Source: Sabellastarte sp. h YS-2021
Lineage: Eukaryota; Annelida; Polychaeta; Sabellida; Sabellidae
Length of the DNA: 64,000 nucleotides
NCBI GenBank assembly: GCA_964017235.1
Contig: OZ024929.1
Coordinates: forward strand, 59,243,603-59,307,602
Direction of reading: 5' to 3'
Position numbers and translations under genes: made by a program. How positions within the stretch are numbered: position 1 is the first letter of the stretch; every line of letters begins with the position of its first letter. Below, piece after piece: positions 2,498-55,386 of the stretch. The notes beneath the pieces are model-generated. The model did not search any database and was not told where the DNA came from. It saw only the letters and a program-made list of their open reading frames with translations.

Positions 2498-2650
2498 AAA
2501 GGTCAAAGTTGGGGTTTTACGTCCCGTTCAACCGCCAGGGTCATATTGGGACAGGTCCTCAGAATTGCCACTTGTGGGACTCGAACCCACAGAGGTGACA
2601 GCCTATGATTAGATGCCAAACTTGCTAACCACTAGGCCACTGAGGACCTC
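2498..2650 (-). mobile_element. tRNA-derived SINE, family A, inside LINE ORF2
   Basis: On the - strand the head reads like a tRNA with A box (GTGGCCTAGTGGTTAGCA) and B box (GGGTTCGAGTCCC), followed by a tail shared with copies at 41047-41200 and 62285-62446. An 11-bp duplication GAATCTACTAC flanks it (2487-2497 and 2651-2661). Because of the tail and flanking repeats I call a SINE, not a tRNA gene. Confidence 0.88.
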
Positions 2651-7248: not shown

Positions 7249-8400
7249 TCAAAATGTTTTTTTCCCAATGTTCGGACCTTCATGATGCCTGGATACTGCC
7301 AAGAATACGTTAGAGAGGGAGTGGCGTTGGATTGCTTTCATCAGTAATCTGCTTCCTCCGTACTCACCGTCATCACTAAATCCTTGAAGAGTGGAATCTG
7401 GATTTGCATGATCATTTGCAACATAAGCATACATTATATGATCTGCTTTAGCGACTCTGGGATGCTGTAACAGTGACCTGTGTGCAGCAGCAGCTTCTTG
7501 ATGGTTGTTCACTGACAACAGATGACTTTGGAAAGAGCTTCCTGAATACTCCTTTACATCTGAATGGAACATGGTGTTATAGGATATGGGAGCTGTCGCA
7601 TTGAAGTTATCAGCTGGTAGTGGGTTCTTTTCAAAACATGAAGCAACTGGTGCGTTGTTTAGTGTTAACTGGTCTCTTCTTAGTACAATCTTTGCTGAGG
7701 GGTCATCTCTGTGCTGATCACGTAAATCTCTTAACATTGGCAGTTGAATGTTGCGTCTTTCTCGCATGCCTGCCGGTAGCTGTTCACTTACTGATATTCC
7801 TGATCCTCTGAGGTTTCTGGCGTGTTTTAAGATTATTTCTTTGCCACGCCTCAGTACAAGTTTCACAACAACAGGCCTTGGCTTTTGGCTAAATTTTCCA
7901 ATACGATGAGCTACATCAACCTGGATTAGACCTGTGGGGTAGTATTCGGAATGAACTAAATGATTTTCTATGTTCATTTTCCTCACTAGAACATCCTGAA
8001 CTACTTTATAGATTTCTTCATTCTGTTTTTCAGGAATATTGTAAAATACAACATTTTCACTCATTGATCTTAATTCTAAGTCTTCACATTTAGATTTCAG
8101 TGTCTGAATGTCTTTACGCATCCTCATTGCCTGATCTTCGGATTCTGAGAGTTGCAGTCTCATTTTACTATTTTCCTCTTTCAGTTCTTGAATTTCCTCT
8201 TTTGTATTCTTTTTGTGGTCATCTAAAGATTTTTTTAACTCGTTGAGAATACCTATAACAGTGTCTATTTTCTCATGTAATGTTTTCTCATCATTTAACT
8301 CATCTTTATCAGTTTCCAAGTTTTCATTCATTAAGTCAGGCACTATATCTTGTTGGTTGGGCATCTTTGACACTGGGCTTGGTGTACTTGATAAGGACAC
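7249..8400 (-). CDS. LINE ORF1: coiled coil, L1-type nucleic-acid-binding core, IMPACT/UPF0029-like C-terminus
   Basis: 383 residues from ATG 8400. Residues ~30-110 are a charged heptad coiled coil (leucines, E/K rich). Residues ~112-250 match the L1 ORF1 core (E-N-V-V-F-Y-N-I-P, A-H-R-I-G, P-R-P-V-V-V-K-L). Residues ~287-383 look like an IMPACT/YigZ (UPF0029) domain: S-x-F-Q-S-H-L, a K-A-D-H-I-M-Y-A-Y stretch, D-D-G-E, G-S-R-L-L, and V-F-L-A-V-S-R with a G after it. The L1 core binds RNA as a chaperone; IMPACT proteins act on GCN1/GCN2 translation control. The fusion is in one open frame with no stop. What the extra domain does here is unknown. Confidence 0.8.
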   Translation of the reverse strand: MSLSSTPSPVSKMPNQQDIVPDLMNENLETDKDELNDEKTLHEKIDTVIGILNELKKSLDDHKKNTKEEIQELKEENSKMRLQLSESEDQAMRMRKDIQTLKSKCEDLELRSMSENVVFYNIPEKQNEEIYKVVQDVLVRKMNIENHLVHSEYYPTGLIQVDVAHRIGKFSQKPRPVVVKLVLRRGKEIILKHARNLRGSGISVSEQLPAGMRERRNIQLPMLRDLRDQHRDDPSAKIVLRRDQLTLNNAPVASCFEKNPLPADNFNATAPISYNTMFHSDVKEYSGSSFQSHLLSVNNHQEAAAAHRSLLQHPRVAKADHIMYAYVANDHANPDSTLQGFSDDGEYGGSRLLMKAIQRHSLSNVFLAVSRHHEGPNIGKKTF

Positions 8401-8550
8401 TTGACTAAGATTTCTTTTCTTTGTATGGGTCTTTTCCTTCAGGTGTTGTATATTGTTTATTATTATCCATTATATGTCACTAATCACACATAACATTATT
8501 ATATCACAATACAATGGGTTGTTATTTATCATAACAGAAAGGATTCAAAA

Positions 8551-16224: not shown

Positions 16225-16446
16225 CCAAACAGATGACTAAAACTACCCAGAATTTAAATCTATTGATATCTAGTTTGAAAAAATCTGGCATTAATTAGAA
16301 CCAAACCTCATGCATAGCTTATCTACTTTCAAAGAGCACTTTGTATAAGTAAGTGTGATATACGTTGACATTTATGTGTTATTGAGAGCTCGAGTTGTAA
16401 ACACCTAATTTATTAATGTGCAAGATAATAAAACAATCCCAGCGAA

Positions 16447-17073
16447 ATGACCTCTCTGCCATTTACATCACCTTGCACCGCAATTATTTCAGGCCCTACA
16501 GGGTCGGGAAAATCAACTTTTATATTTAAGATTTTAAATAATCTCAATCACATGTTTAGCCAGAATGTGGATAAGGTATATTATTTTTATGGAGTTTGGC
16601 AAAAAATTTTTGATACTAATGAGTATTCTAATTTAGAATTTATAAAAGATTTACCAGACAAAGAATTTTTAGATTCGATTAAACATGATAAGCACTCCTT
16701 AATTATTTTGGATGACTTACAGTTTGCAGCCTTAAACAATGCGTTCATAGCCAATCTCTTTTCTAGAGAGGCTCACCGCAGGAATATTAGTGTATTTTTA
16801 ATTCTACAAAATTTATTTCATCAAGGAAAATACTCTAGGGACATTTCTTTGAATGCACATTATTTTGTTCTTTTTAAAAATCCTCGAGATGTAAACCAGA
16901 TCAAATACCTGGGATCTCAATTAGGTATTTGTGACAAATTATTGGAGGCTTATTTAGATGCTACCTCTGTACCATTCAGTTATCTAATGGTGGATCTATC
17001 TCCAAACTCGGATAGATCATACATGTTAAGATCAAGCATATTTCCTACAGAGCTTGCAATGGTATATAAGTAA
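16447..17073 (+). CDS. A32-like DNA packaging ATPase (outer element)
   Basis: 208 residues from ATG 16447. Walker A G-P-T-G-S-G-K-S is at residues 16-23 and Walker B L-I-I-L-D-D-L at ~85-91; a Q-N-L-F-H-Q-G-K motif and F-K-N-P-R-D follow, the signature of Polinton/adintovirus packaging ATPases of the FtsK-HerA class. The enzyme pumps the genome into the capsid. The frame is intact and of usual length. It is the first gene of a tight + strand block (ATPase, two small ORFs, integrase) and faces the LRR gene across a 222-bp gap (16225-16446). The inner element's ATPase is longer because it carries zinc fingers. Confidence 0.9.
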   Translation: MTSLPFTSPCTAIISGPTGSGKSTFIFKILNNLNHMFSQNVDKVYYFYGVWQKIFDTNEYSNLEFIKDLPDKEFLDSIKHDKHSLIILDDLQFAALNNAFIANLFSREAHRRNISVFLILQNLFHQGKYSRDISLNAHYFVLFKNPRDVNQIKYLGSQLGICDKLLEAYLDATSVPFSYLMVDLSPNSDRSYMLRSSIFPTELAMVYK

Positions 17074-17461: not shown

Positions 17462-17817
17462 ATAATTTTATATTGGTTACTAAAGACCAATTCGATGAAT
17501 TGAAGGCAAATCAGATGTCCAAATCAGATAAGCCTGTAACATCTCCAAAAAATTCGGATAATGTTAACACATCACCTGATCCTAAAGACAAAAATCCATC
17601 AGACATAAAGCAGATTAGAGAAAATGAAAATAATATAAAAAGATTAAACCCTCCACCTGGACTACCTAATGATTATAAGACCCCAACAACAAAAGACAGC
17701 AACAAAAATGTCAGAGGAAGAGCAGAGGATGGCAAGATAATCAGAAATAGAAGAGCAGACAGGTCAGATCCGAAATGGCTCAAATTCTGGAACAAAAATA
17801 TCAGATGTGGAAAATGA
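17458..17817 (+). CDS. Small hydrophilic protein, unknown
   Basis: 119 residues starting M-N-N-F-I-L-V. The middle is disordered (Ser, Asp, Asn, Pro) and the end is basic with aromatic residues (P-K-W-L-K-F-W). It overlaps its neighbours at both ends (ATGA with the previous gene, 11 bp with the integrase frame), which supports a real, translated gene. No domain recognised. Confidence 0.5.
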   Translation: MNNFILVTKDQFDELKANQMSKSDKPVTSPKNSDNVNTSPDPKDKNPSDIKQIRENENNIKRLNPPPGLPNDYKTPTTKDSNKNVRGRAEDGKIIRNRRADRSDPKWLKFWNKNIRCGK

Positions 17818-18951
17818 CTACCTAAATGGTATATACTATAATCCTAGAAGCCCTGTCGCTTTCAGTGGATTTCAAAGAATATATAAATTCCTCAACTATG
17901 AGGAAAAAGAAATAAAACCTAGAAAATTAAAGGTTTGGTTAAGTAAACAAGAGGCATATACATCTCATTTTCCAGCTAGAAGGAACTTTCAAAGACCTAG
18001 GGTGCTTACATTTTCTAAAAATTATCAGTGGGATACAGATACAGCCAATATGAATCGATATAGAGACTACAATGATAGTTATGGTTACTTTGTGGTGTTT
18101 ATTGATATATTTACAAGATTCTTGTATACAGCTCCAATGAAGACTTTAACTGGTAAAGAAATGGTATATATCCTGAATGATCTATTCACCAATGTCGAGG
18201 TCCAACCTACAAAATTAAGAAGTGATCAAGGAAGTGAATATCTGAATAGGGATATGAAGAGATTTCTTAATGATAGGAATATCGATCATATTTTCACATT
18301 CTATGAAACCAAAGCGAATTTTGCAGAAAGAGTGATAAAAACTATTAAATTAAAAATTATTAAGTATTTCACAAGTAAAGAAACATATAGATGGTTAGAG
18401 ATATTATCTGATCTGACCTACAGTTATAATATTTCATACCACAGGAGTATTAAAATGACACCATCAGATGCTCAGGAAGTTGATAGTTTTACATTATGGC
18501 AGAGGCAATATGCAATGGATTTAGATAAATACGAAAGCAAGGCTAGAAAGAGTGGAAAGGGAAAAAAACAAGGCATGAATAAGAGGCTTTACACCAAAAG
18601 ATATAAATTCAAATTAGGTGATAAGGTAAAAATTATCTATTTAAAAAAACAATTTGATAGAGAATACTCTGAAAGGTGGTCTGGTGAGATTTTTACTATC
18701 GTTGAGAGAAAAATGAACCAGAATATACCCATGTACAAATTGAAAGATTACAATAATGAGGTTATAGAATCCTATTTTTACGAGCTTGAATTGCAGAAGG
18801 CCTATATTGACAGTGACGTTGTATACAAGGTAGAAAAAATAATAAAAAAAGGAAACGAAATAGGATATCTGAGGTTTTAGTGAAATGGAAAGGATGGCCA
18901 AGTAAATTCAATTCTTGGATCCCCGAGAGTGACTTACAGGATATAAGCTAG
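17807..18951 (+). pseudogene. Retroviral-type DDE integrase with chromodomain, one frameshift
   Basis: The catalytic core shows D in Q-W-D-T-D (~residue 76), D in R-S-D-Q-G-S-E-Y (~140) and E in F-A-E-R-V-I-K (~173), the Polinton integrase triad. A basic linker and SH3-like segment (F-K-L-G-D-K-V) follow. The frame stops at 18880, but a frame shifted by one from ~18835 completes a chromodomain (L-V-K-W-K-G-W, then S-W-I-P) and ends at TAG 18949-18951. No ATG opens this frame; GTG 17807 is only the earliest start-like codon, so the true start may be a splice or an upstream shift. Integrase inserts the element with 6-bp duplications; chromodomains steer it to chromatin. Confidence 0.88.
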
Positions 18952-20896: not shown

Positions 20897-21249
20897 ATGT
20901 TTAGATTTTTTGCAACAGATGCATGCAGGGGAAGGTGGGCTACAGCAAAGGCTTTTTTATTCTCGACAAGGTTGAAACACCCAAGAATAAGGAGATGGAG
21001 GATGCAGAGATAGATATATCAGTAGTAAGTCCTACTCAGGCAGCAGTAAAACAAGCTAAAAGCGAGTTAGAGCAAGAAAAAACTATAAATAAGGCTAGAA
21101 AAAGAAAATACAATCAGTAAAAAAATTCTAAAATTAAAAAAGGAGTTAAAAAAAGGAAAATTACAAAGAAAAAGAACTTAAGAGGAAAGGTGGTTAAAAA
21201 AAATCAAAAAAAAATTGTAAGACCGGGTTATAGTTCAATATGGATGTAG
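20889..21249 (+). pseudogene. Basic core/mu-like DNA-binding protein, broken
   Basis: ATG 20889 opens a short frame (M-N-K-C-L-D-F-L-Q-Q). A one-base shift before 20975 leads into an acidic then very basic frame (to 21249) that is further cut by TAA 21118-21120; the rest is almost all Lys/Arg. This acidic-to-basic layout and place before the capsid gene suit a genome-condensing core protein like adenovirus mu/pVII. The inner element's basic protein (30160-30480) shares the S-P-x-Q start and the K/R tail and is probably its homologue. The last codons overlap the capsid ATG at 21240. Confidence 0.55.
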
Positions 21250-22546
21250 TACAAACATCCCTCAGTCTTTTTCAGGCCCCTCCAATTGACAATTCTATTC
21301 AGAGAGAATATTGGGTTGAGTTTAATCCTATTGCAGCCATATCTTAGAGTGGGCTAATAGAATTCAACATTCCAGGAACATCATTAGATTATATAAATTT
21401 AGCAAAAACTAGGCTACAGGTTACCTATGTATTAACTAAAGCAGATGGGAGTCCTATCGATGATGAAAGGGATATTAATGGTAAACCAACAGATACCTCT
21501 GATCAGGTTGCACCAGTAAATCTGACATTGCATTCTATATTTCGACAGATAGATTTGTCTTTAAATCAAAAAACAGTTTCACCAGATGTTGGTGTTAACT
21601 ATCCATATAAGGCAATGATAGATTTTCTTTTAGGAACTACTAGTGACATGATTGATTCTCAAGGTCAGGCTGTTTTATTTCATAAAGACCAACCAGAAAA
21701 TATGGAAGAAACAAGCTATTTAGGGGGTAACCCGGCTTTTACCTATAGAGCAGAAAAGACTAAAGATGGAGGGTCAATTACCTTAGGGGGGTCTTTATAC
21801 TTAGATTTTGCCTTTGGACAAAACAGGGCTATTTTAAATGGAAGGGCCGTTAATGTTAAGTTATTTCAGGCAAGTAATGATTTTAGATTGATGAGAAATG
21901 GTACCAATGTTTATAAATTAAAAAGATTATCAGCATTGTTAAAGGTTTGTGATGTAGGTTTGAACCCATCTATAATACTAGCTCATAATGAGGCTTTGAA
22001 GTTAGGTCTTGCGTTATATCCATTCTGGAGAAGTGATCTAAAAATTTCAGTGTGGCAGCCGGTTCTCAAACATTCATGACAGATAACATCTTCCATGGTA
22101 AGGTGCCCAGTAAAATAATAATAGGGATGGTTTCTAATGCCGCCTATTTGGGTGATTTCAGTAAAAATCCATATAATTTTAAACATTTGGATGCCAATTA
22201 CTTGGAGGTCAGTGTGGATGGACAACCAGCACCTAATAGACCTTTCAAACCTAACTTTGAGGAACACAATTTTGTGGCATCTTACCTTAGTCTATTAGAT
22301 AGTGACCTTAACCGCAAAAAAGGGATCATAATTCGCCTAAGTGATTGCCCTGGTGGATATGCATTATATCTTTTTGATATACAAAGTTTTCTTTCTGATA
22401 AAATTACGGCAAAATCTATGAATGGATATGTGAGATTAAGTATAAGATATGCAAAAGCATTACCAGAGACAATCAATGTAATAGTTTATGCTAAATTTCC
22501 TGAATTAGTCAGTATTGACAAAAGTAGAAATGTAACCATGACATAA
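21240..22546 (+). pseudogene. Major capsid protein (hexon-like double jelly roll), stop and frameshift
   Basis: From ATG 21240 the frame shows the Polinton capsid start (Y-W-V-E-F-N-P, then I-E-F-N-I-P-G) and long jelly-roll sequence including P-V-N-L-T-L-H-S-I-F-R-Q-I-D, Y-P-Y-K-A and later L-K. TAG at 21345-21347 is in frame at codon 36. A one-base shift near 22045-22055 moves the rest (Q-T-F, N-I-F-H-G-K-V-P, then N-P-Y-N-F) into another frame ending TAA 22544-22546. Total length about 435 codons, near the family's usual size. The gene is recent enough to be fully readable but cannot make a full capsid protein. Confidence 0.88.
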
Positions 22547-22806: not shown

Positions 22807-22845
22807 TAAAAGTGTCTCCTGATAGTTTTTATAAAATAGCTTGTA

Positions 22846-23308
22846 ATGATGGATTCCTACACCCTAGCAAGGTTAATGTCAGGGGATAAGATGATTGAAA
22901 AAAGATTTCATGGAATATATCCATTAGATATGATTCCTGATAATCTCCCAGCAAATTCTTTGATAGTTGTAAATCAGGATAGGTCTATGGAAGCAGGAAG
23001 TCATTGGATAGTGTTACATTATAAAGCAAAAGACATTGTAGAACATTTTGACTCAGTAGGAAACCAACCAAAGAAATATATACAAAATTTATTACTAAGT
23101 AATATGAAATCATATATATGTACAATAACAAGAGATTACAGGCATATGACAGTTATACACATGTGGTTTTTTCTGTTTATATTATAGTGTCTATTCGTGC
23201 AGGCTGGTCTCTTTTTCTAAAATATTAGAGGGTTTTACAGATAACTTAGTTGAAAATGAGAAAATTGTAAATGATTTCTTCGTTGTAATTTTTTTGTCTA
23301 GTGTCTAA
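22846..23308 (+). pseudogene. Adenain-type cysteine protease (capsid maturation), frameshifted at the catalytic Cys
   Basis: The first frame (22846-23187) has S-H-W (catalytic His), E-H-F-D-S (acidic residue) and N-Q-P-K-K. The Q...C-G-F-F-C region with the catalytic Cys lies in other frames: one-base shifts around 23130-23160 move the reading to a frame ending TAA 23306-23308. Adenain-like Ulp1 proteases cut capsid precursors in Polintons and adenoviruses. Normal length is about 150-200 residues, which the joined span would give. As it stands the enzyme is dead. Confidence 0.78.
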
Positions 23309-23506
23309 TAGATTATTTATGTATTATAATCAGTATTATTATTATTATTATTTAAACATTTCTTACAGAATAAATACCTCTATTAGTTTATCTACCTCGA
23401 TTATTCACAGATGCGCATTTCATTATTTTTTTGGGCGTATTCCATCAGTATTTGCCCCATAAGATTACTTCCTGTTACAGAAAACAGAGAAATAACTTTG
23501 GCTAAC

Positions 23507-23911
23507 TTAGAGTTTATGCTTGTACCCCAAAATCTCTTCATTTCTATCCATATTTATCTGTTTATAAATTATACATTTGTCTCGAGCATTAAATAATTCC
23601 TCTCTGAAGTCTTCGACCTGTTGAAATTTTTGCATAATAACAAATCTCATAATTCTCTCCTCAAGATAGTTATCAAAAAGTCTATTGTGATTTTTAACAA
23701 AGGACTGAATTTGGTATGGATCTTCTGATTTAAAAATGTTGTTTGCAAGATCTGGTTGATTATAAAATTTGGCAAGAATAAGGTAAAAAACTTGTTCTGA
23801 TGAATGATAAATCGTTCCCTCTATATTTATCTCACAAAAATATAGGTTGGAAAATGGATGCTCAGATTTCTCCACAACTAGGTTACTTGATTCCCAGGGC
23901 GATAGGGTCAT
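23507..23911 (-). CDS. NADAR (YbiA-like) domain, in frame with the polymerase C-terminus
   Basis: 134 residues from ATG 23911. Signature: P-F-S-N-L-Y-F near the start, G-T-I-Y-H-S-S-E-Q with the catalytic-type Glu, an A-K-F-Y helix, R-I-M-R-F-V-I-M-Q-K-F-Q-Q, and D-R-N-E-E-I-L-G at the end, the NADAR/YbiA pattern. NADAR enzymes are N-glycosidases; some remove ADP-ribose from guanine, others act on riboflavin intermediates. The frame is open and continues upstream without a break into the conserved end of DNA polymerase B (V-L-A-D-G-I-S-T), with one stop 26 codons before the ATG. It is either a fused domain of the polymerase or a gene starting at this Met. Confidence 0.75.
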   Translation of the reverse strand: MTLSPWESSNLVVEKSEHPFSNLYFCEINIEGTIYHSSEQVFYLILAKFYNQPDLANNIFKSEDPYQIQSFVKNHNRLFDNYLEERIMRFVIMQKFQQVEDFREELFNARDKCIIYKQINMDRNEEILGYKHKL

Positions 23912-26900
23912 ATCGAAAGGTATAGTAGATATACCGTCAGCTAAAACTTCTCTTTTACAATAAAAGTAATTAAATCCTATTTTCTGTTAAGAATATGTAT
24001 AAATATCTGATTTTGTAACTCTAAATCCTACATTATTAGATTAAATGGTTGTCTTATTATGAAGAGCATCCTCAAATTTTTCATTGGATCCTCTAGATTT
24101 CTCTTAGAAATTCCTTTACACGATAATTTTTGCTTTACTTGAGAATGTTGAATTATATATGACTTTGAACAGAGTGATACCATCTTGATGCCCTACCATT
24201 CACACTTGTACATGCCTAGGTATCTCCCGTCAAGCGCAAGATGTCGCTTACAACATCTTCTTGGAAACCATATCGGATTTTCATTATCAGAACAAGATTT
24301 AAAAATTTCCTTCTGATACTTACTTTGGTGACTGGGTTTGATACATTGATCTATAGATGACTTATTTATGGCCATGTAAATACTATCAGTATCTGTTTCT
24401 GTGAGTTCAAAACTATTTTCTACAAAATATTCAGATATACATTCATAAAAAATTGTAACATTCTTAATTTAACATATTGCAGTATAAAAAACCCTATTTG
24501 GATTGGGTTATCCATTATTATACTTTTTTCAAAGATTCAACCTCATATATTTCATTATTTAATTCCTCTAACGATTTGAATGTAGATGAATTAATCATTT
24601 GTGTGACCTTGACCTTGTACATATATTTAGTGTGGGTATGATTAGAACGGTCCATTGAAACAGATCCATAACTGGAGTTGCTTAATAATTTGTAAGTGTC
24701 ACCTATAATGGCCTTATCAGGGTTCTGATCTCCTCTAATTCTATGCATGGTGACTGTATCTATAAAAGATTTAAATGAGGTAAATGGCTGGTACTCTACC
24801 AGCTGATATATCTTCTGGATCTCACAGTGATTAATCAAATACCATTGTAAGAGTGGAGTGGCTATAAGTATCCTCTGCGCTTTAAGTCCACTTATTAATA
24901 ACCTTTTATGAGAAAATTTTATATCATTATGCATACAATATTCCTGCATATGTTCACCAATATCTTGCATTTTAACGTTGCATGTACAAAAAGGGGGAAT
25001 TCTTTAAATTTATCTGTAAATTTAGGATTAACACTTATATCAACCTCTAGAGCCCCAAAAAGTTTGCCTGACCTAACATCTTTTATTATTTTATTAAAAG
25101 ACAATGACCCTTTAATTCTTTGGTAGTAAGATGGTAGGTATTTGTGATAAATGTTGTTACATTTTTGTTTAATTTGTGTAATGAACTCACACTCTTGTAT
25201 GGTTACCACATTATAGCCCTCAGATATTAAAAAAATTTCTCTTGATGTCCTTCTTCTTAGTTTTTTCAAGCTTATCAAGCCATGCTTTATTTTTTATCTT
25301 AGAAACGATATAACAGTTATTAGAACAATGATGATAATAGCATCCATTATACTCATAAACAGTATTATTTTTTTGACAAAAAGCATCTACTAGATAATTA
25401 CCTATTCTGATTTCTTTAGAATTATTCATTTTATGTAAAATTTTTATTTTCTGTTCTCTCATTAGATAATCCATCCAAACATATGAATCTATGTATTTCT
25501 CAATAACTTCTGGTTTAAATTTATTATCCACATATCTTCTAATATATAGACCTGTAGGCATTTCTTGTTTAATAGCGTATGAGTAGAGGCCATTACAAAT
25601 ATATCCAACTACTACCTGGCATGGGTTATTATCTATATTTTTTATATTTGTAACATCCTTTTCATAATATCTTGAAAATATAATACTTGCTCCGCCAACA
25701 ATATTCTTTTTAATGGTATAATATAGATCTGCATTATGGTTGTTAATTAATAAAAACTTACTATCAGAGGATTCATAAAGCATTTTTCGAGCTACTCCTG
25801 GTAGTGTGACATAATCTTTAAAAACATCTATGCCTTCAGCATTGTAAATATCTATAAAATTTTTCAATGCTATAATAAAGGGTCCTGTATCTAAATTATT
25901 ATAATACATCAAATAATCTTTGAAGATTTTCATATTCTTTGTATTCCAAATGTCCTTGAGGTTTTCATAGTCTTGTTCAGATTGTATAGGATTTTTATTG
26001 CTTAATTTCGAAAAAAATGCTTCTGGAGGTGGAAGATGTGTATCATTTAATTTTTCTTCAGAATTGAACCATTCGTATGGAAAAATTCCTTTGGGTATTT
26101 CACAGCCATAGGCTTTTAAAAATTTGCTATGAGAACAACCTGCTGCTAAATAATTAGATATATCTAGAAAACTCATTTCGGGTACACCAATAGATATGTA
26201 TGTGTTATTTTTCTTAATTGGGAAAATTTCATTCTGCTTATATCTACATGTAATATATGCCATTATCTGTTTCTTAATTAAATTTAAATCATATTTCCCT
26301 GAATTAAAGCCTATAACTGGAATCTGTTTAAAGTAATTGTCGAATTCGTTTTTTAAATTGATAAATGGGTTAGGCCCCCTTTCCTCAGCTTGAGAATGTT
26401 ATAGAGATTCATCAGATTCAAAATAAGAATCATTAGATTGATCAGCTTGGTATCTCTCTATGAGTTCACCGAGCTCTATATTGAGAGAGGAATATTTGTC
26501 CTTCAAAATATTATAACTAGTGTTACTTATCTCAAGCAATCTGGTCATCATTTTGTTGATCAGAGATTTTCCATTCATTTCAACTATACATGTAGGTTCT
26601 TCAAATCCAGCTACATTGGAAGCAATGCTTATACTGATGGGTATGTGTTTGGTTAGCCATTTTAATTTATCTTGTGTAGATGACTGAATTTTTTGCAGCA
26701 TAGCCTCCATATCCCATACTATATAATAAGGAAAATATTTCTGGTTTCTGCTAATATTAATTTCTACAGATTCTAATTTGTCAAATATAGTTGGCTTTGT
26801 TTTATGAAAACCGCCTGGAAATATATATTTAGTTCTTTCGTAGCAGATAGCATTATGTCTTTTCAGGTGCCATATTTTCTTAAATATTTTTGAGCATTTT

Positions 26901-27949
26901 TCGCATTGAAACCTCTTAGCAAACTTTTGAAAATTAGTTATAAAACTAATGATTGTTATATACATTTAGATACATTTTAGATGAGTTTTGAGACATAGTT
27001 TCGTATACATGAGAGACAGTTCTATTAGAATTCAAATTATAAATCAAAATTTTAACATTAAAACATTTCTCAATGTTTGTAATGTCTTCCAACATTATTC
27101 CTGGAAATTGTTGCTCTGTCATTATTCAATAATTATATTCCGACCATATCTTCAGATAATCTTTAACTTTTTTCTGATTTTTAAAATGAAATTTAAGACA
27201 TCTGAAAAAATATAAATTATCTTGATATGGTTGATTGCTCCTTCTATTTATGAACATATTTCTTAAATATCTATTGGCTTTAATGTAGGGAGGCAGATCA
27301 GTAACTGCTCCGAGAGGGAAGTCTGTCCAAAAAACATGGTATTGTACATTGGTTATAAATGCCAGAGTCCATGCTGTAGAGGATCTTATTGCACAAGCTT
27401 GTTCTATAATATCTATTCTATGAATTTTATTCATCAATAAACGAATACTGTTTCTATTAGATATTGTAAAAGGATAGGTTAAAATTCTACTGTTAAAGTA
27501 GGGAATATAATATCTATATTTCCCAGTCTGATTATTGAATAAAATCATACCAAAAGCAAAGTTAATCCTATAGGTGACATTGAGGTCATCATAAATGTCA
27601 TTTAAATGTCTTTGAATTTCTGCATATCCTTGATCCAAATTGTTGGTAGTAAAGTTGTATATGTGCCTCAATTCACCCCTTTGGTGGTTGGCCATTATGT
27701 GATTCCTGTTGGTGCTGTATACTTCACGAATATTATTATTTTCTTCATTCTTGATATATTCAGGTATATCATCATCATAATCTTCATCATCATTACCTCC
27801 ATGTTGAATCATCCTATGTGTACATAATTCTCGCCTAGTGTTACACTTCTTATTACAGAACATTTATATGTCTTTGATTTTTTATCTGTATTTCTACGAT
27901 GATAGGATATGATGGGTGTATTGAGAGCTGAGGTAGTCAAAAATGGAAT
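23912..27949 (-). pseudogene. Protein-primed family B DNA polymerase (Polinton type), main part, multiple breaks
   Basis: Read from 27949 down. It has the C-terminal half of a Zn-finger region, the Polinton 'F-R-C-L' segment (~27155), a C2H2 finger (26820-26900), exonuclease motif D-M-E (~26710), G-F-N-S-G-K-Y-D (~26330), a V-G-G-A-S motif, a VSR-like insert (E-Y-N-G-C-Y-Y-H-H-C), F-G-A-L-E-V-D-I, the K-x6-N-S-S-Y-G helix, and catalytic T-D-T-D-S (~24385). Then come L-C-S-K-S-Y and the terminal V-L-A-D-G-I-S-T. Breaks include a shift near 27850, stops at ~27126 and 26399, shifts near 25250, 24950 and 24450, TAG 24193-24195, a shift near 24030 and TAA 23987-23989. The N-terminus lies beyond the inner element at 35193-35414. 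Confidence 0.9.
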
Positions 27950-28149
27950 AGTAGTAAGGGGGATACTATAGGAACGCAAGGGGGCATTATAGTCACACAA
28001 TCTATATGGTCCCCGAAGAGGGCCATAAAGATTTTGTGACCAAAGAGCCAACAGAGTTCAAATCACGGACCATCTGTGTGAGGGGGGATATGGGGAGGGG
28101 AGGTGGGGGGGTTACTTAATGCAGGGGGTTGTTAATTATCTGTGAAAAT
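27950..28149 (+). repeat. Left TIR of the inner element
   Basis: 200 bp matching the reverse complement of 34993-35192, with scattered differences and a slightly different G/C-rich block (GGGGGGATATGGGGAGGGG). The TIR happens to be open in the frame of the interrupted polymerase on the - strand, which makes a false ORF across the border. Confidence 0.92.
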
Positions 28150-28193
28150 ATATATTGGGTAGTAAACCGATTTCGCTTTCATAAACCATCGAG

Positions 28194-28640
28194 ATGTCAA
28201 AGGAGCAAGATCACGCAGTAGACGGTAGAATCGGAGGCTTTTCATTCGGGACCAGTTCTACAAATGGACCGACCATGTCGAAGGAGCATACCGGCAACGC
28301 TAGAATAGGAGGCTTTGCATTGTCAACGAATCAGGACACTGTTGAGAAAGGTGTATTCGAAGGTTTCTCTGTGTTGAAGCATACTAAATATTTGCTTTAT
28401 TCGTCTAGAATGGCAACCTTTAATACATGGCCAAAAGCCATGCCTATCACTGCCAAAGAATTAGCACATGCAGGATTTATTTATACTGGCTACTCCGACA
28501 AGGTACATTGTCCCTGGTGTGGCATTACTTTGTATTCTTTCGAAACTCGAGACAGCGCTTACGAAGAGCACCTGAAGCACAGTAAAGGATGCCATTACCT
28601 TCTGATGACAGTTCCCGACAAGTTCATCGACATCAATGGA
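28194..28640 (+). CDS. BIR-domain (IAP-like) protein of the inner element
   Basis: ATG 28194 (two repeats of an M-S-K-E N-terminal unit with G-G-F). The BIR spans ~28400-28600: T-F-N-T-W-P, A-G-F-I-Y-T-G, then C-P-W-C, 16 residues, His, 6 residues, Cys, a perfect zinc set. BIR proteins block caspases or apoptosis signalling. The reading frame stays open to 29096, but 28640-28900 looks like promoter DNA, so the true end (perhaps a splice) is not certain. Related to the outer BIR gene, though the N-termini differ. The inner copy has all four zinc ligands, while the outer one has lost one. Confidence 0.82.
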
Positions 28641-28699
28641 TTATGTCCTACAAAGGGACACGGACTATTTTTAAAAATTCTAGAATATAGAAACACATA

Positions 28700-28890
28700 C
28701 ACACAATTTTTCTTCCAACCAATCAAATTGCAGCAATTATGGTCCCACCAAGCGAAGCACCCTGTCTTATTGTCACGCCAATCAAATTGCATGAATTATG
28801 GTCAAAATGCTGGATTTAGCGTCACACCAATCAGAAGCAGGCATTCGATTATAAAATTGATGAGCATCTCTATAAATATATCGCAACGTA
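28700..28890 (+). promoter_or_regulatory. CCAAT-repeat promoter with TATA box
   Basis: Two direct repeats, CCAATCAAATTGCA followed by a GAATTATGGTC or CAATTATGGTC segment (28719 and 28781), a third CCAATCAG (28829), and TCTATAAATATATCG at 28870-28884. The next ATG at 28908 lies ~25 nt downstream. This suggests a separate gene starts at 28908 even though the upstream frame is open. Confidence 0.55.
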
Positions 28891-28907
28891 GCATTCGGGC
28901 AGCAAAC

Positions 28908-29686
28908 ATGGAATTGACAGCAGAAAAGAGCAAGTTCAACGAGACTACTTTCGTGCGTCTCAGCAAAAACAACCGTTACATTTGCTTTTCCAGTAACGTC
29001 TGGAAGAAGCTTTCAAATCAATTCCATAGCATAACCGAGGCTCTGAAGAATGAACAAAATTTCAAGTTCGAACTTAAAAAGAATCTAACCTGGTGACGCT
29101 TCCCTTTTACGGCAAGATGTACGTCTGCTTTAAGAGGAATAATCTGTACATCAATTTGGATGAAATCCAATGGAAAGAGTTTCAAGAGAAAGCCCTCGAG
29201 ATTTTCTCACCGGCGGATAAAGAAAACATTCCTCCCGAACCTACCGTAACCAAGTACCTTTACAGCGCTGAGCACGGATCTCCTAAATCGTTCTTCTCCA
29301 AGACGTCTCTGAAGCAGTACGCCGAACAGGAAGGGTGGCCCTACACTATAACCGAGAAAAAGGCTCCTGCCCCGGACAAACAGAAACTCGTCAGACTCGT
29401 TAGAGCCTATATCACCCAAAAGGCAGCGTTGGATCTCGTTAGAGAGCACTGTTATGGTTGTCAATACGACATGCCGGGACAGAGGGACCATAGCTGTTTA
29501 GAAGAAGACGCGGAACAAAATTACTTGCATTTGATCTCTTTAAGTAACGTGGCAGAAAACGTCGAGAAAGTTTTCAAGATTTTAGGACTACAAGAAGTCG
29601 AATATGCGCCATTGGAGGAAACTACCCTACCAGTGTTAGAGACTATTCCCGAAGACTACAAACTGCTGTTCCGAGAGACCCTATAA
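28908..29686 (+). pseudogene. PC4-like tandem protein with Cys/His motif, one frameshift
   Basis: ATG 28908. Two similar strand-helix units (N-R-Y-I-C-F-S-S-N-V-W and Y-V-C-F-K-R-N-N-L-Y-I) resemble the tandem PC4-like genes of Polintons. A one-base shift in an A-rich run near 29075-29092 separates them. The second half ends with an acidic tail and a motif C-Y-G-C-Q-x8-H-S-C that I associate with conserved Polinton proteins of unknown function. GTG 29093 is not a likely start. Codon use here is richer in G+C than in the outer element. Confidence 0.55.
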
Positions 29687-29759
29687 ACTTTCAATTTCTC
29701 TATGTTTTATGTGAAATGTTCAATAAAATATGTGTACTCTGTAAATATTAGTTTTTTTC

Positions 29760-30144
29760 CAGGGTTTCCTGGTCCCCCCTTCCTTGGAAGGTATTATTTG
29801 TTCGCAGACAAGGGTATCATCTCGGGACCACAACCGAGACTCATTGTTGCCAGGATTCAATCACTTGACCATCTTTTAGCACTCTCACATTTATTAGGTT
29901 GTTACCGAATCTGGCTTGACCGTACTGTAATCCAGCCATCGCACACTCTTTGGCATTCGCATATTTCTTCTTGCTGGGTAATTTTTCCAAGTATTCTATT
30001 GTATACGTATACTTTGCGATACTAGGGTGATATCTGACATGCTCTATTTTTTTTTGTTTTTATTTTTTTTTAATTTTTTTTTTGGTTTTTAACCTTTTTA
30101 TTCATTAAAAATTCGGATGTTCGATAAAATCGACGCAGGAACTG
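29760..30144. repeat. Left arm of an internal inverted duplication
   Basis: 385 bp, near-identical to the reverse complement of 32534-32913. The two arms enclose the core-protein and ATPase genes (30145-32533). Contains small gene copy A. Confidence 0.92.
29841..30047 (-). pseudogene. Small unknown protein, copy A (lacks ATG)
   Basis: A 68-codon frame on the - strand: Y-L-E-K-L-P-S-K-K-K-Y, then A-M-A-G-L-Q-Y-G-Q-A-R-F-G, then V-L-K-D-G. The codon in the start position is ATA where copy B has ATG. The frame is otherwise intact. No domain recognised. Copy B in the opposite arm has the reverse defect. Confidence 0.5.
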
Positions 30145-30159
30145 CCTTATTTTACTCCA

Positions 30160-30480
30160 TCACGAAAATATATCCGTTTGCACCATCCTTCGACCTCTTG
30201 TAGACTTTTTAACTCTCCTGACTGATGTATTTTTACTCCTGGACTTTTTAGTTACGTAGTTATTACCGGTCTTCTTTTTCTTCACCATTTTTCTTATACT
30301 TTTCTTCTTTTTTTCCGTCGGTTTTCCTATTCCTTTTTTCTGAGCCTGTTTTTCTATGGCTCTCTTCCTTTTGACCAACATTTCAGCCATTTCGGTTTGC
30401 TGTTGTACGGGACTGATTAATTTAAACGGATAGTATCCTTTTGGTATCCACATATTTTTTTCCTTAGATACAAGATACAC
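30160..30480 (-). CDS. Small basic core protein of the inner element
   Basis: 106 residues, over one third Lys/Arg, ending G-R-R-M-V-Q-T-D. After a short N-terminus (W-I-P-K-G-Y-Y-P-F) comes S-P-V-Q-Q-Q, then long runs of K. It matches the acidic-basic core gene of the outer element (20889-21249) in layout and in the S-P-x-Q segment. It likely binds and condenses DNA like adenovirus core proteins. Convergent with copy A and divergent from the ATPase gene. Confidence 0.6.
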   Translation of the reverse strand: MYLVSKEKNMWIPKGYYPFKLISPVQQQTEMAEMLVKRKRAIEKQAQKKGIGKPTEKKKKSIRKMVKKKKTGNNYVTKKSRSKNTSVRRVKKSTRGRRMVQTDIFS

Positions 30481-30810
30481 TCTATATGGCTCAGTTAGTA
30501 AGGTTTAAAGTTTTTGATTGAGAATATTCAATCTTATACTACGCACCTCAGATTTGTTTATTTCTACGGTCTTTTATAAACTTTTCAAATATTTTTGAGC
30601 CACCTAGCCACTTGCTTTCATTAAGGTACAAAAGTTGAGGCTATGGTTTGGCTAAGGCCTTTTACAAATCCAGGTATTTAGGTCAAATACATTGTTTGTT
30701 GGGTAATAAATTTAACTAAAAATCCTATGCATCGAGTGGGCAAATTTATAAAAGATGGCAGTTACATTTAGATGAAGACGTTATATATTTCTAGACACTG
30801 ACGAGTCACC

Positions 30811-32532
30811 ATGAATAAAACATGCGAAAAGTGCTCAAAGGGTTTTGCTACGCCTTATTCATTCAGGAGACATATGTTTACACAGCACAAAAGGGGTGCA
30901 ATCTCGGGTTGGAATGAGAAAAGAATTGTAAATCCATCGTCGGCTGATCTTGCACACGCAATGCCAAATGTTACACGCGTCTCAAATATAAACCCTAATG
31001 TGGCACACATAGCACCCGATGTCACACACGTGCCCATTGTAACACCCAAGACACCGCAAGAAAAGTTTTTATCATCCGAAGCACTACACGGATTGAGACA
31101 AATTTATCTTCCGCGTTTGAAAGTATCGTCAAAACAGGAGAATGCCTTTGTGTTTAGGCACCAATTTACAATGTTATTGGCAGGACCGACCTCTTGCGGA
31201 AAAACAACCTGGATGAAACATTTACTGCAACAGGCTGAATCAATGATAACACCTCCTCCTGAAAAGATCTTATGGTTTTACAAAAGATGGCAGCCTGCTT
31301 ACACTGATTTACATGACACTGTTCCTCATATAGAATTCGTGCAGGGTATCGAACAGCGGACTCCTGATGGTCAGCCTACCTTGTACATTTACGATGACCT
31401 TATGAAAGATACCACAAAAAATGTAGACGTATGCGAAATGTATACCGAAGGCTCTCACCATTGTAACTTGAGCGTCATTTGCTTGCTACAAAATTTGTAC
31501 CACCATGGCAAAGAAAACAGAACCATAAACTTAAATACACAATATATTGTACTTTTTGAAAATCCGCGCGACCAGCAACAGGTGGCGCATTTGGCAAGGC
31601 AGATGTACCCGAATAATTCTAAGTCGTTTTTAGATGCATTTCATTATGCTACCAAGGAGCCCTACGGCTATTTACTAGTCGACCTCAAACAAGATACAGC
31701 CAATGAAGACAGGCTTAGGACTAATATTATAAAAGGGGTTGGAAAGCGTAAGATGCATCACTTAACATCTGACAGTCAGCAGGGAAACAGTGTGAAAAAG
31801 AGAGTTGAAGATATATATAAAATGGATAAAAGCCAATGGTCTTGCATCGATTGCGGTATTATTTTTGCATCTACGATGGACCTACAGAAACACGTTAAAA
31901 GAGGGTGTCCCGAAAATGATGAGCCCCCTATGAAAAGACTGTGCGATGAAAATACAGATGAACCCGATGAATCTGGATGGGATAACATAGTGCAAAGAGT
32001 GTATAGAAAGTACGATGACCAATACTCAGAAAAGGTTGAATCCTACGAGAAAGAGGGTTATTCCGAAGTAGAATCGAGACAAAAGGCCACAGAAGACTTA
32101 TTTTGGAAGTATAGAAAGGGTATTATGAAAAGTTATGCCGATATTTTGACAACTGTGCATCATTTGAAAAGGAGTACGATACACCAGGAAGTGATGGAAG
32201 AGATCCAGACCTTAATGAATGAAAAACATTACAGATTCGTCCAGGCTTTGAAAATAGTTCTTCGTCGAAACTCATCTTTGTTCGATGAACTTATTGACAG
32301 CGAAGAAGAAAACGATGATGATAGTACAGATGATGAATCCGATTCGCATACAGAGGAAGAAAGCTCTGAAACGGATGGGGAATCCGATTCGCATACAGAG
32401 GAAGAAAGCTCTGAAACGGATGGGGAATCCGATCAGCATGCACAGGATGACAGCTATGAAACGGATGGGGAATCCGATCCGCATGCACAGGATGAAAGCT
32501 CTGTAGAAAGTTACAAGACCCCTTACAATTAG
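30811..32532 (+). CDS. C2H2 finger + A32-like packaging ATPase + C2H2/helical domain fusion
   Basis: 573 residues, intact. Residues 4-25 are a C2H2 finger. Residues ~100-310 are the packaging ATPase: Walker A G-P-T-S-C-G-K-T (125-132), Walker B Y-I-Y-D-D-L (~193), Q-N-L-Y-H-H-G-K and F-E-N-P-R-D. A second finger (C-x2-C..H-x5-C, ~346-367) leads into a helical segment (Y-R-K-Y-D-D, A-T-E-D-L-F-W-K-Y-R-K) known to me from separate Polinton proteins. The end is four copies of a 15-residue acidic repeat. The outer ATPase (16447) has none of these extras. A TATAAAAG box is at 30747-30754. The fusion brings packaging motor and DNA-binding fingers together. Confidence 0.85.
   Translation: MNKTCEKCSKGFATPYSFRRHMFTQHKRGAISGWNEKRIVNPSSADLAHAMPNVTRVSNINPNVAHIAPDVTHVPIVTPKTPQEKFLSSEALHGLRQIYLPRLKVSSKQENAFVFRHQFTMLLAGPTSCGKTTWMKHLLQQAESMITPPPEKILWFYKRWQPAYTDLHDTVPHIEFVQGIEQRTPDGQPTLYIYDDLMKDTTKNVDVCEMYTEGSHHCNLSVICLLQNLYHHGKENRTINLNTQYIVLFENPRDQQQVAHLARQMYPNNSKSFLDAFHYATKEPYGYLLVDLKQDTANEDRLRTNIIKGVGKRKMHHLTSDSQQGNSVKKRVEDIYKMDKSQWSCIDCGIIFASTMDLQKHVKRGCPENDEPPMKRLCDENTDEPDESGWDNIVQRVYRKYDDQYSEKVESYEKEGYSEVESRQKATEDLFWKYRKGIMKSYADILTTVHHLKRSTIHQEVMEEIQTLMNEKHYRFVQALKIVLRRNSSLFDELIDSEEENDDDSTDDESDSHTEEESSETDGESDSHTEEESSETDGESDQHAQDDSYETDGESDPHAQDESSVESYKTPYN
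32335..32505 (+). repeat. 45-bp coding tandem repeat at the end of the ATPase gene
   Basis: Four units of 45 bp (15 codons, pattern E-S-D-x-H-x-x-x-x-S-x-E-T-D-G) at 32335, 32380, 32425 and 32470, the last partial. They encode an acidic tail. Open frames on other strands here are shadows. Confidence 0.9.
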
Positions 32533-32533
32533 A

Positions 32534-32913
32534 CAGTTCCTGCGTCGATTTTATCGAACATCCGAATTTTTAATGAATAAAAAATATAAAAAATTTTAAA
32601 AATTAAATAAATAAAAACAAAATAATGGAGCATGTAAGAAATAACCTCAGTATCGCAAAGTATACTTATAGGATCGAATACTTGGAAAAAACTGCCGAGC
32701 AAGAAGAAATATGCGGATGCCAAAGAGTGTGCGATGGCTGGATTACAGTACGGTCAAGCCAGATTTGGTAACGACCTAATAAATGTGAGAGTCTTAAAAG
32801 ACGGTAAAGTCGTAGAATCCTGGCAACAATGAGTCTCGGTTGGGGTCCCGAGGCGATACCCTTGTCTGCGAACAAATAATACCTTCCAAGGAAGGGGGGA
32901 CTAGGAAACCCTG
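32534..32913. repeat. Right arm of the internal inverted duplication
   Basis: 380 bp, near-identical to the reverse complement of 29760-30144. Contains small gene copy B. Confidence 0.92.
32625..32832 (+). pseudogene. Small unknown protein, copy B (frameshifted)
   Basis: Starts at ATG 32625 in the right arm and matches copy A, but has one extra base after the Y-L-E-K codons (~32688), so its 208 bp are not a whole number of codons. The later part reads A-M-A-G-L-Q-Y-G-Q in the shifted frame. The two copies are broken in different ways. Confidence 0.5.
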
Positions 32914-32936
32914 AGATGGATTACGTTTGATGAGCC

Positions 32937-33480
32937 TCATGTGCGGTGCACAATATGTTACGTGTGCGGTGCAGATTGTGTTACATGCGTTACATGTGCG
33001 CACATTGTGTTACACGTGCAGTTTGTGCAGTGCACATTGTGTTACATGTGCGGTTTGTGTGGGTCACATGTGTTACATGTGCGGTGCACATTGTGTTACA
33101 TGTGCGGTTTGTGTGGGTCACACGTGTTACATGTGCGGCGCACATTGTGTTACATGTGCGGTTTGTGAGGGTCACATGCGTTACATGTGCACACATTGTG
33201 TTACATGTGCGGTGCACATTGTGTTACATGTGCGGTTTGTGAGGGTCACATGTGCGCACATTGTGTTACATGTGTGCACATTGTGTTACATGTGCGGTAC
33301 ACATTGTGTTACATGTGTTACATATGCGGATTGTGAGGGTCACATGCGTTAAATATGCGCACATTGTGTTACATGTGCGGTGCACATTGTGTTACATATG
33401 CGGATTGTGAGGGTCACATGCGTTAAATGTGCGCACATTGTGTTACATGTACAGTCATATGTTACGCGTGTGATTTTAAG
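32937..33480. repeat. Tandem repeat based on TGTTACATGTGCGG
   Basis: Many copies of GTGTTACATGTGCGG with CACATTG and GGGTCACATG spacers; higher-order units of about 70 bp. It is non-coding; frames through it are cysteine-rich artefacts. Confidence 0.93.
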
Positions 33481-33529
33481 CGGCACATGTGTTATATCAT
33501 AATGAACGCTTTGGTATAGTTAAAATTTC

Positions 33530-34990
33530 CCGTTATTTCTCATACAAGGTTAAGTTTGATATCAAAACGTTCGCCGGGACTCACTGATTAAGATGCTTTT
33601 CGAATTTTTAAAATCCGACTATCCCTCGCAGAGTTGGGGCCGTTTGAAAAATGCAAATTATGTGTCTCTTAACATAATTAATGAATATTTTTTTCAAATT
33701 TTTATCAATGGTTTAACAGGAGCGTGTTTCATATCAACACGTTCGTCTGGACTCACTGATTAAGACGCTTTTTTAATTTTTAAAATCGGACTATTCCTCA
33801 AAAAGTTATGAGTATTTGAAAATTCTACATTATAATTCCTTAAAAAGACCTTTTTAATGATTAAAGACACCAGCTGTGCGAATGGCATTGTCAATAGGTG
33901 ATAATAGGCTTTTACAATGGGACTTTTTTTTAATGTGCTGGATTTCAAAATATTGTGCATTTATTATTTGGGGTTATAGTATTAGGTATCAAAATTTTCG
34001 TCTGGAGATATGGATCGAGGTCCTTTTTGAATTTTTAAAATCGGACTATTCCTCAAAAAGTTATGAGCATTTGAAACTTATACATTATAATTCCTCAACA
34101 AGACCTTTTTACAGATGAATGACACCAGCTGTGTGAATAGCTTTGTCAATGGGGGGATAATAGCCTTTCCATTGAACTCTAGTATATTATATTTCAATTT
34201 TTGGACTTTGATATATTTGAGGGATTCTTACTTATTCCAGTATTATTAAATAACAGTTATTGAGAAAGCTTTAAAATAAGGTAATTACTTAAAAATAAAG
34301 GTAATAATGTACAGGGGTTGGTTTAAATTAAAGTGAGCAGAGTTTGAATTATATGCGGCGTCTAATGAAAGGCTGCTGTGACAATGTGAAACTGGGGTCC
34401 CTTTAGCTGACTTTTTAAAGGAAAAAATGTGATGTGGGAAAAAAGCTTGACTGTTACATGTGTGTAGTTTTAATTTTCTTGTTTGCTTTGAATTAGTAGA
34501 TGTTTAAATAATTCCAAGTTATGTGTTTTCAAATGTCCTTACAAATTTTTAGGGGTTTAAATATCTTAATTTTTTACATGTTTCATATTTTTTCTTCAGT
34601 GCTATGACAAATTTCGTATGTAGTTTTAAATGTCCCTTATTTGTTGCTATGAATGTGTAGATGATTAAATAATCCTTGTTGTTTGCATCTTTTGTCCTTA
34701 TACCTTAGAAATTTGTATGTCCTAATTGTGTTTCATTTCTTTAGTGTTATGATAGATCTGTACATAGCTGTAAATGTCCCTTATTTGTTGCTATAAATAT
34801 GTAGATGCTTAAATATTCCAAAGTTGTTTACTAGTTTTTAAAGGTCCTTGGATGTTTGCTGGTTTTATTTTACCTTTAGCTGTTTGCATGATTTTATTTG
34901 CCTTTATGTTGCTTTAAATGTTGTGTAGTTGTTGGTGATGCTATGAATATTTTATGTACTTCATTCCAATAAATGTATTCCATTTCAACC
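33530..34990. repeat. Degenerate direct repeats filling the right side of the inner element
   Basis: Three units of 180-250 bp (starting near 33535, 33712 and 33966) share TTTTTAAAATCGGACTATTC and ACACCAGCTGTG. From 34440 to 34900 a second unit recurs three times (TGTAGATG-TTAAATA and ATGTCC-TTA elements). No ORF supported. Confidence 0.7.
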
Positions 34991-34992
34991 TA

Positions 34993-35192
34993 ATTTTCAC
35001 AGATAATTAACAACCCCCTGCATTAAGTAAACCCCCCACCTCCCCTCCCCATATCCCCCCTCACACAGATGGTCCGTTATTTGAACTCTGTTGGCTCTTT
35101 GGTCACAAAATCTTTGTGGCCCCCTTCGGGGACCATATAGATTGTGTGACTATAATGCCCCCTTGCGTGACCATAGTATCCCCCTTACTACT
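34993..35192 (-). repeat. Right TIR of the inner element
   Basis: Reverse complement of 27950-28149. Ends ...ACTACT at 35187-35192 next to the TGGAAT duplication (35193-35198). Confidence 0.92.
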
Positions 35193-35414
35193 TGGAATAT
35201 CACATTGATAACAAAGATGTTTCCCACATTTCCTCAGGTGAAACTTCATTTCAGCGATTGTATTAAAGCTGTTACCACATATATTACATATTTCCCGGTT
35301 ATTTCTGTTAGATGACAAACATATTCTTTGATGATATTCCTGATTGGATTTCGTTATCATACCCCATCCACAATATCTACAAGTGTGTCGTATTATTGGT
35401 AGGTCTGGAGCCAT
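35193..35414 (-). pseudogene. DNA polymerase B, N-terminal zinc-finger region (outer element)
   Basis: The frame starts at ATG 35414 and has three Cys/His finger modules (C-R-Y-C-G..H-x3-C, C-N-I-C-G..H-x3-C, C-Y-Q-C-D). It runs into the inner element at 35193. On the far side (27949 downward) the same frame continues to a further Cys pair. Multiple N-terminal fingers are usual for Polinton polymerases. A TATAAG box on the - strand near 35450 lies ~36 nt upstream of the ATG. Confidence 0.8.
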
Positions 35415-35802
35415 TCTTATATTTCCTGAGAGATTGCAAAAAATGTCTTATAAAAATTTTCAAAAAACTGAAAGAGTGTCGTGGATAATGCCAGCAACAA
35501 CATCCAATATATATATAAAACAAACCATAAATTTCCTTCTGCTATTATTATGTACAGAGGCCAATATGGCATCCAACAAGACACATAGGTTCTGATTGTG
35601 GGTCCTTGGAACCAGGCTATTTGTTTGTTCCAGCATGATGCGGTAGTTCTGCATATTTGCTATGGTTAATTTATATTTCTTATATGTGCAGGTGTTGAGT
35701 GTAAATTTCTATATATAAAAAAATATTATATTAGAGCATATATATATATTTTGCATAACTAGGTCCATTGTGAGAGATATGTAAACCAAAACAGCTGATT
35801 GA
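35415..35802. other. Gap between polymerase start and right TIR
   Basis: Apart from the likely TATA box for the polymerase (~35447-35453, - strand) I see nothing coding. The short open frames here have no motifs. Confidence 0.5.
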
Positions 35803-55286: not shown

Positions 55287-55386
55287 AACAAGCTGACGTA
55301 GAGACCCATACTTCAGCACATATTAGCATAGGGTCACAAATGCGTGCACAAGAGGATGGTTTGTATCTCAGAGCTAAAATTATGAT

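Follow-up and report, generated by a model that had tools for sequence, protein, structure and literature searches.

The window, a 64,000-nucleotide stretch of the genome of the polychaete Sabellastarte sp. h YS-2021 (contig OZ024929.1, positions 59,243,603 to 59,307,602 of the forward strand), contains a degraded Maverick/Polinton element whose family B DNA polymerase (PolB) is joined to a NADAR domain. The junction lies in a 159-codon open reading frame (ORF) at 23507–23986 on the minus strand, in which the polymerase C-terminus (KREVLADGIST) is followed by NADAR in a single frame. The fusion had been proposed in a sequence-only reading of the window, and it is borne out by this ORF and by intact relatives. 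The motif VLADGIST is present as described, at 23947–23924 rather than at 23990–23912. The assignment of the domain holds in a hidden Markov model search: the Pfam NADAR profile (PF08719) matches residues 27–143 of the ORF, corresponding to 23908–23558, with an E-value of 1.9e-10 and a score of 41.7 bits, above the gathering score of 35.1. The match covers profile positions 12–123 of 163. The NADAR of the window is incomplete, and its reading frame diverges from those of its relatives ahead of the FWG motif. A remnant of the NADAR C-terminus continues off the ORF frame at 23423–23557 (minus strand), where the similarity of the DNA to an intact copy (positions 1–218 of L041 against 23638–23423 of the window, 71.6% identity) extends to about 23423.

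Upstream of the NADAR ORF, the polymerase gene is distributed over several frames with stops, all on the minus strand. The piece at 24193–24468 carries motif C (TDTDS) and matches database protein P0009 at 88%. The palm with motif B lies at 24518–25003, where the Pfam family DNA_pol_B_2 (PF03175) reaches an E-value of 3.2e-5 and 23.4 bits, short of its 25.8-bit cut-off. The part that links the exonuclease region to the palm is at 24919–25293, overlapping its neighbours in a different frame. The exonuclease region and the start of the palm are at 25220–26398; the motif A aspartate, present in all 17 intact frames read, is replaced here. The piece at 26399–26965 holds the ExoI region and a stretch resembling a zinc finger, which at 17.4 bits falls below the cut-off, and the N-terminal part of the gene, which matches P0015 and P0110, is at 27126–27863. 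The polymerase of the window is regarded as a fossil because it is split into several frames, its motif A aspartate is replaced, and its NADAR is truncated. The window copy is a dead member of a PolB–NADAR family. The N-terminal piece adjoins a 7.2-kb nested element (27950–35192) with 200-nt terminal inverted repeats that are 97% complementary and a 6-bp target duplication, TGGAAT. Beyond this element (35276–35537, minus strand) lies DNA that is 70% similar to the beginning of the polymerase gene in an intact copy; we infer from this that the element inserted into the polymerase gene, close to its start.

Intact copies of the fused gene are present elsewhere in the genome, which is 1.79 Gb in size. 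The search for NADAR gave 1513 candidates, and 150 matches were scored. Frames of at least 1000 codons hold 46 of the scored matches, and frames of at least 1590 codons hold 34, of which two are flagged with one TAA within the match. Nineteen stretches were read: 17 picked among the 34 for their long frames, each with one ORF, and two others, the closest relatives of the window copy, both of which are broken. The 17 intact frames fall into five groups with 54–63% protein identity between groups, and one group splits at 85–86%. ExoI, motifs A and B, and the polymerase end are found in all 17, motif C in 16, and ExoII and ExoIII in 15 each. The NADAR motifs YKQ, FWG or YWG, and GNNxxG are likewise present in every one of them. 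Five of six intact ORFs exceed the PF08719 gathering score, and one scores 32.9 bits. It is not the case that a stop always separates the polymerase from NADAR in intact relatives, as the 34 long frames demonstrate. Over the stretches that align, identity to L012 is 99.67% or more for ten of the 15 loci compared and 92.6–99.1% for the other five; this subfamily therefore spread recently.

The fusion recurs in database proteins. A search with the window ORF returned 11 proteins, one of which is the window's own. Five proteins of 201–266 residues (P0002, P0003, P0005, P0006, and P0007), with 42–62% identity to the window ORF, consist of a polymerase end and an in-frame C-terminal NADAR, although that of P0006 scores 30.9 bits, under the gathering score. 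P0009 spans the region from polymerase motif C to the NADAR start. Homologues of the palm are more numerous: among the 120 listed of the 704 found, 16 have a precomputed PF08719 match within the same protein. The polymerase end could be placed in 96 of the 120. Of these, 51 end no more than 18 residues past it, some perhaps cut by contig ends; 23 have tails of 19–93 residues; and 22 exceed 40 bits against a NADAR profile that was itself trained on tails, including those of 10 of these 22. The named polymerase matches include Tegillarca granosa (P0055, 44%), Pinctada imbricata (P0168, 42%), and Porites lobata (P0057, 42%), with echinoderms and Branchiostoma at 40–41%. No relatives were confirmed in a viral contig database queried with the C-terminal alignment and a polymerase piece. 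Four database Maverick polymerases (P0143, P0217, P0220, and P0235) have cysteine-rich, zinc-ribbon-like extensions past NADAR.

The polymerase tree comprises 99 rows, after six of 113 were dropped as too short and eight near-copies were omitted. The clade containing the rows of this genome (15 rows) consists entirely of NADAR-bearing polymerases and has a Shimodaira–Hasegawa-like approximate likelihood ratio test (SH-aLRT) support of 100. In the NADAR tree, 20 Maverick tails are separated by a branch with support 98/94 from four NADARs of long interspersed nuclear elements (LINEs), two of repeats, and one of E. coli. A single gain of NADAR with later losses would be the simplest reading; it is consistent with the trees and falls short of proof. 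Polymerase and NADAR identities are correlated over 19 rows (r = 0.917), and none of 2000 permutations gave an equally high value. The NADAR tail is under purifying selection between subfamilies. Ten pairs were tested for the ratio of nonsynonymous to synonymous substitution rates (dN/dS): in four pairs at dS 0.19–1.16 it is 0.16–0.23 for NADAR and 0.09–0.17 for the polymerase. Two pairs at dS 1.5–2.0 have NADAR values of 0.32 and 0.27, and two further pairs are saturated.

The structure of the tail was modelled from an intact relative with an alignment of ten sequences, giving a YbiA fold with a predicted local distance difference test score (pLDDT) of 71.8. Its matches among PDB chains at E-values up to 0.001 are the two NADAR entries only, and in BFVD the best fold matches include viral NADARs. 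Searching the PDB with the window ORF alone did not find NADAR; a profile of ten relatives did. The model shows that the tail keeps the NADAR fold, and the catalytic glutamate, the other feature on which the sequence-only reading could be checked, is present in the window as E64 of the ORF, at the distal-ribose position (E43). According to the accessible text of PMC11543638, the residues shown to be important in characterised NADARs are E43, K50, and E125 in Phytophthora numbering, and an arginine at the lysine position is active in vitro. Described subfamilies have E, D, or H at the last-strand residue, as given in the available part of PMC11125620. The corresponding positions were mapped onto E. 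coli YbiA via spacing in 39 Maverick tails, 34 of which were counted for the lysine. The helix glutamate (E43) is kept in 30 of the 39: all 17 frames of this genome, all five database relatives of the window ORF, and eight of 17 database tails. A lysine at +7 (K50) occurs in two of 34, plus one arginine; none of the 17 frames of this genome has it (I, L, or M instead), and the two belong to the 17 database tails. The acid or histidine of the last strand (E125) is absent from all 39 tails, which have Tyr (31), Phe (3), Gln (2), Ser (1), Ile (1), or Asn (1); in the 17 frames of this genome, the residue is the tyrosine of the YKQ motif. Unlike the YbiA-type enzymes (E. coli YbiA, 2b3w; Phytophthora NADAR, 8bau), the Maverick tails are fused to a DNA polymerase, have the last-strand glutamate replaced, mostly by tyrosine, and have their lysine off the canonical place in 32 of 34. 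The K50 and E125 positions exclude them from the described catalytic NADARs (YbiA, BC4488, and phage gp30.3 type), and by sequence the Maverick NADARs are a divergent group of their own. The earlier suggestion that the domain removes ADP-ribose is not supported in that form, because the canonical lysine is rare in the Maverick tails and the last-strand acid or histidine is missing from all of them.

The explanation that we prefer, with a probability of about 45%, is a single ancestral fusion that produced an ADP-ribose-binding replicase tail lacking hydrolase activity of the known type. An ancestral invertebrate Maverick may have gained NADAR at the C-terminus of its polymerase, a few residues past the normal end. 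The fused gene would then have been inherited as one unit and have diversified in this genome into five groups. The tail could act as a module tethered to the replicase, with ADP-ribose or a related NAD-derived compound, carried by viral DNA or by replication proteins, as its ligand. Such binding would let the polymerase tolerate ADP-ribosylation by the host, and the tail would not be a guanine-ADP-ribose hydrolase of the known type.

Several observations weigh against this explanation. The NADAR label requires seven changes on the polymerase tree, at least one of them forced, which leaves room for losses or repeated gains. PF03175 falls short of an E-value of 0.01 in all six intact proteins scanned, and the identity of the polymerase is assigned because of its motifs and of homologues annotated with PF03175. 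Residues 130–152 of the model, the FWG region, have pLDDT values below 50. The first glutamate is exchanged for A, T, D, K, or R in nine of the 17 database tails, which suggests weaker binding of ADP-ribose there. An acidic residue three or four positions before the FWG tryptophan in all ten aligned rows may be a relocated catalytic acid, and a lysine at +9, two residues past the canonical place in five of eight frames of this genome, may have taken over phosphate binding. Two near-identical pairs together have six nonsynonymous changes and one synonymous change in NADAR, and are uninformative about recent constraint.

Somewhat less probable, though still a serious contender, is an enzymatically active tail: an ADP-ribosyl hydrolase or N-glycosidase whose rewired site would comprise the glutamate, the Tyr, Lys, and Gln of YKQ, and a relocated acid before FWG. 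Such an enzyme would strip from guanines of viral DNA the ADP-ribose that CARP-1-type enzymes of the host had attached, or degrade an ADP-ribose signal. The invariance of the helix glutamate, YKQ, and FWG or YWG in the 17 frames of this genome and the NADAR dN/dS of 0.16–0.23 in four pairs agree with this, as do the LINE ORF1-like proteins of the same genome, which bear NADARs with the full catalytic set. The last strand is already variable (E, D, H) among subfamilies described in the accessible text of PMC11125620, and an activity that ADP-ribosylates DNA at guanine N2 is reported for six edible clams in the available part of PMC11209040. Against it stand the +7 residue, always I, L, or M in the 17 frames of this genome, and the E125 position, where all 17 have Tyr. 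A search of the genome for a Scabin-like family gave no match; its control gave none either, which makes it uninformative. CARP-1 marks are listed as possible, unproven NADAR substrates in the text available from PMC11543638. The proposed role in repairing ADP-ribosylated viral DNA, or in defending against it, may take the form of binding or of rewired chemistry. The proposal would gain plausibility if the host were a mollusc, given the guanine-N2 ADP-ribosylation of DNA in six edible clams (PMC11209040, partial text).

A purely structural or protein-interaction extension, for example for contact with a terminal protein or DNA, in which ADP-ribose handling has been lost, is unlikely. The catalytic columns do vary among database tails (E, R, D, T, A, or K at the helix glutamate), and the GxNxxG end of the fold is mostly kept despite this variation; however, neither the pocket glutamate nor YKQ varies among the frames read here, which is more conservation than a scaffold would need. 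That deletion joined a decayed polymerase end to an unrelated NADAR by chance, as the breaks at several places in the window copy might suggest, is ruled out for practical purposes by the intact copies (34 long frames, 17 of them read) and by the 16 palm homologues, among the 120 listed out of 704, that have a NADAR in the same protein.

A wider proposal goes beyond the binding tail that we prefer, and we consider it doubtful. It holds that invertebrate Mavericks have in common a replicase domain that arose once and has a new NADAR active site, in which the glutamate is combined with Tyr/YKQ in place of the lysine and the last-strand acid, and which evolved to act on ADP-ribose marks placed by the host on viral DNA or replication proteins. 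Unrelated mobile elements of this genome (Maverick PolB, LINE ORF1, and short repeats) would have recruited NADARs in a conflict over DNA ADP-ribosylation.

The polymerase resembles PolB of Maverick/Polinton (adintovirus-like) elements in its exonuclease and palm motifs, thumb, and YCKRxVxxDG end, and in its synteny with an integrase bearing rve and chromodomains and an A32-like ATPase. It differs in that the fused polymerases bear a tail of approximately 150–190 residues forming NADAR, whereas 51 of the 96 database polymerases that reach this end stop within 18 residues of it. Recruitment of NADAR by a mobile-element protein has precedents in the Pol protein of Gypsy elements from Ectocarpus and in the ORF1 protein of Tx1 LINEs from oyster, according to the accessible text of PMC12477816, and NADAR-bearing ORF1-like proteins near reverse transcriptase (RT) ORFs are present here too. 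Those elements are retroelements with an RNA intermediate, unlike the Maverick DNA elements, and the LINE NADARs picked from this genome keep the catalytic set. Linkage of NADAR to a viral replicase is known from replicase polyproteins of invertebrate nidoviruses, hepe-like viruses, and picornaviruses (PMC9503650), which, unlike Mavericks, are RNA viruses with polyproteins. The same article describes other viral NADARs as typically standalone, and its text does not contain the word "polinton". A polinton-like virus of Oxyrrhis has a domain fused to PolB; however, it is a superfamily 1 (SF1) helicase and not NADAR (PMC12721341, partial text). Literature searches combining NADAR with Polinton or Maverick, whose coverage left out most subscription journals, found no description of a PolB–NADAR fusion, in agreement with the sequence-only reading. 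NADAR and Polinton did not occur together in any paper covered; the two papers with both NADAR and Maverick concern wearable diagnostics and MRI, to judge by their titles, and the word in PMC6679389 and PMC9688111 is an author name. The fusion is a variant on a known theme because Gypsy Pol, LINE ORF1, and RNA-virus polyproteins already recruit NADAR; recruitment by replication proteins now extends to Maverick DNA elements. With such a domain, from a family that processes ADP-ribose, on its DNA polymerase, viral replication would be linked directly to the ADP-ribose biology of animals. The roles of animal NADARs are called unclear in the accessible text of PMC11125620, and an intact PolB–NADAR makes such a role testable using one purified domain.

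Along the window element, an A32-like ATPase comes first, followed by an rve integrase, a candidate capsid gene, and a small conserved ORF; the polymerase comes last and lies on the opposite strand. This set of genes recurs, with its order unchanged, beside an intact polymerase at C2:89.59 Mb. The A32-like packaging ATPase (16432–17073, plus strand) has a Pox_A32 score of 22.0 bits, narrowly missing the 22.8-bit cut-off, and is 77% identical to that of the intact copy, which exceeds the cut-off with 25.7 bits. The integrase (17741–18948, plus strand) has an rve match of 43.2 bits and ends in a different frame; the integrase of the intact copy has rve (45.9 bits) and a chromodomain (39.9 bits). 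The candidate major capsid protein occupies two frames (21240–22543, plus strand) that are 82–85% identical to a 435-codon ORF of the intact copy. This ORF is kept beside the polymerase in the window and in L041, L042, and L043, and its model (pLDDT 42.6) was too poor for a structure search for the double jelly-roll fold. An ORF at 22840–23187 (plus strand) is homologous to a 148-codon ORF adjoining the intact polymerase and has no Pfam match; from its position alone, it is a putative protease. A search of the flanks found no terminal inverted repeats of the element itself, either for the window copy or for one intact copy. The polymerase motifs, rve integrase, and A32-like ATPase agree with the earlier description of the element as Maverick-like.

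The other NADARs of the genome were sampled by a genome-wide PF08719 search with 2705 first-look candidates, 150 of which were scored. Six were picked from those scored, four in LINE ORF1-like proteins and two in short repeats, and all six keep all three canonical residues. The ORF1-like proteins (L055–L058) are 408–461 codons long with a canonical C-terminal NADAR, and an RT ORF lies near L055–L057, as in a LINE. The short repeated canonical NADAR ORFs, L059 (3333–3833; 168.8 bits) and L060 (3579–4103), have 167–175 codons and occur on many chromosomes.

Two retroelements are present in the window: a LINE at 2632–8469 (minus strand), with an endonuclease–RT ORF2 at 2632–5670 and a possible ORF1 at 7249–8469, and a broken, probably Gypsy-like element at 54258–58601 (plus strand) with zinc-knuckle, RT, and RNase H frames. 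The 7.2-kb nested element carries a BIR (inhibitor of apoptosis) ORF at 28185–29096 and an ORF with a zinc finger and an A32-like ATPase at 30802–32532. The latter is flanked by a second pair of inverted repeats (29760–29986 and 32687–32913; 227 nt, 93%), which is perhaps a further nested element.
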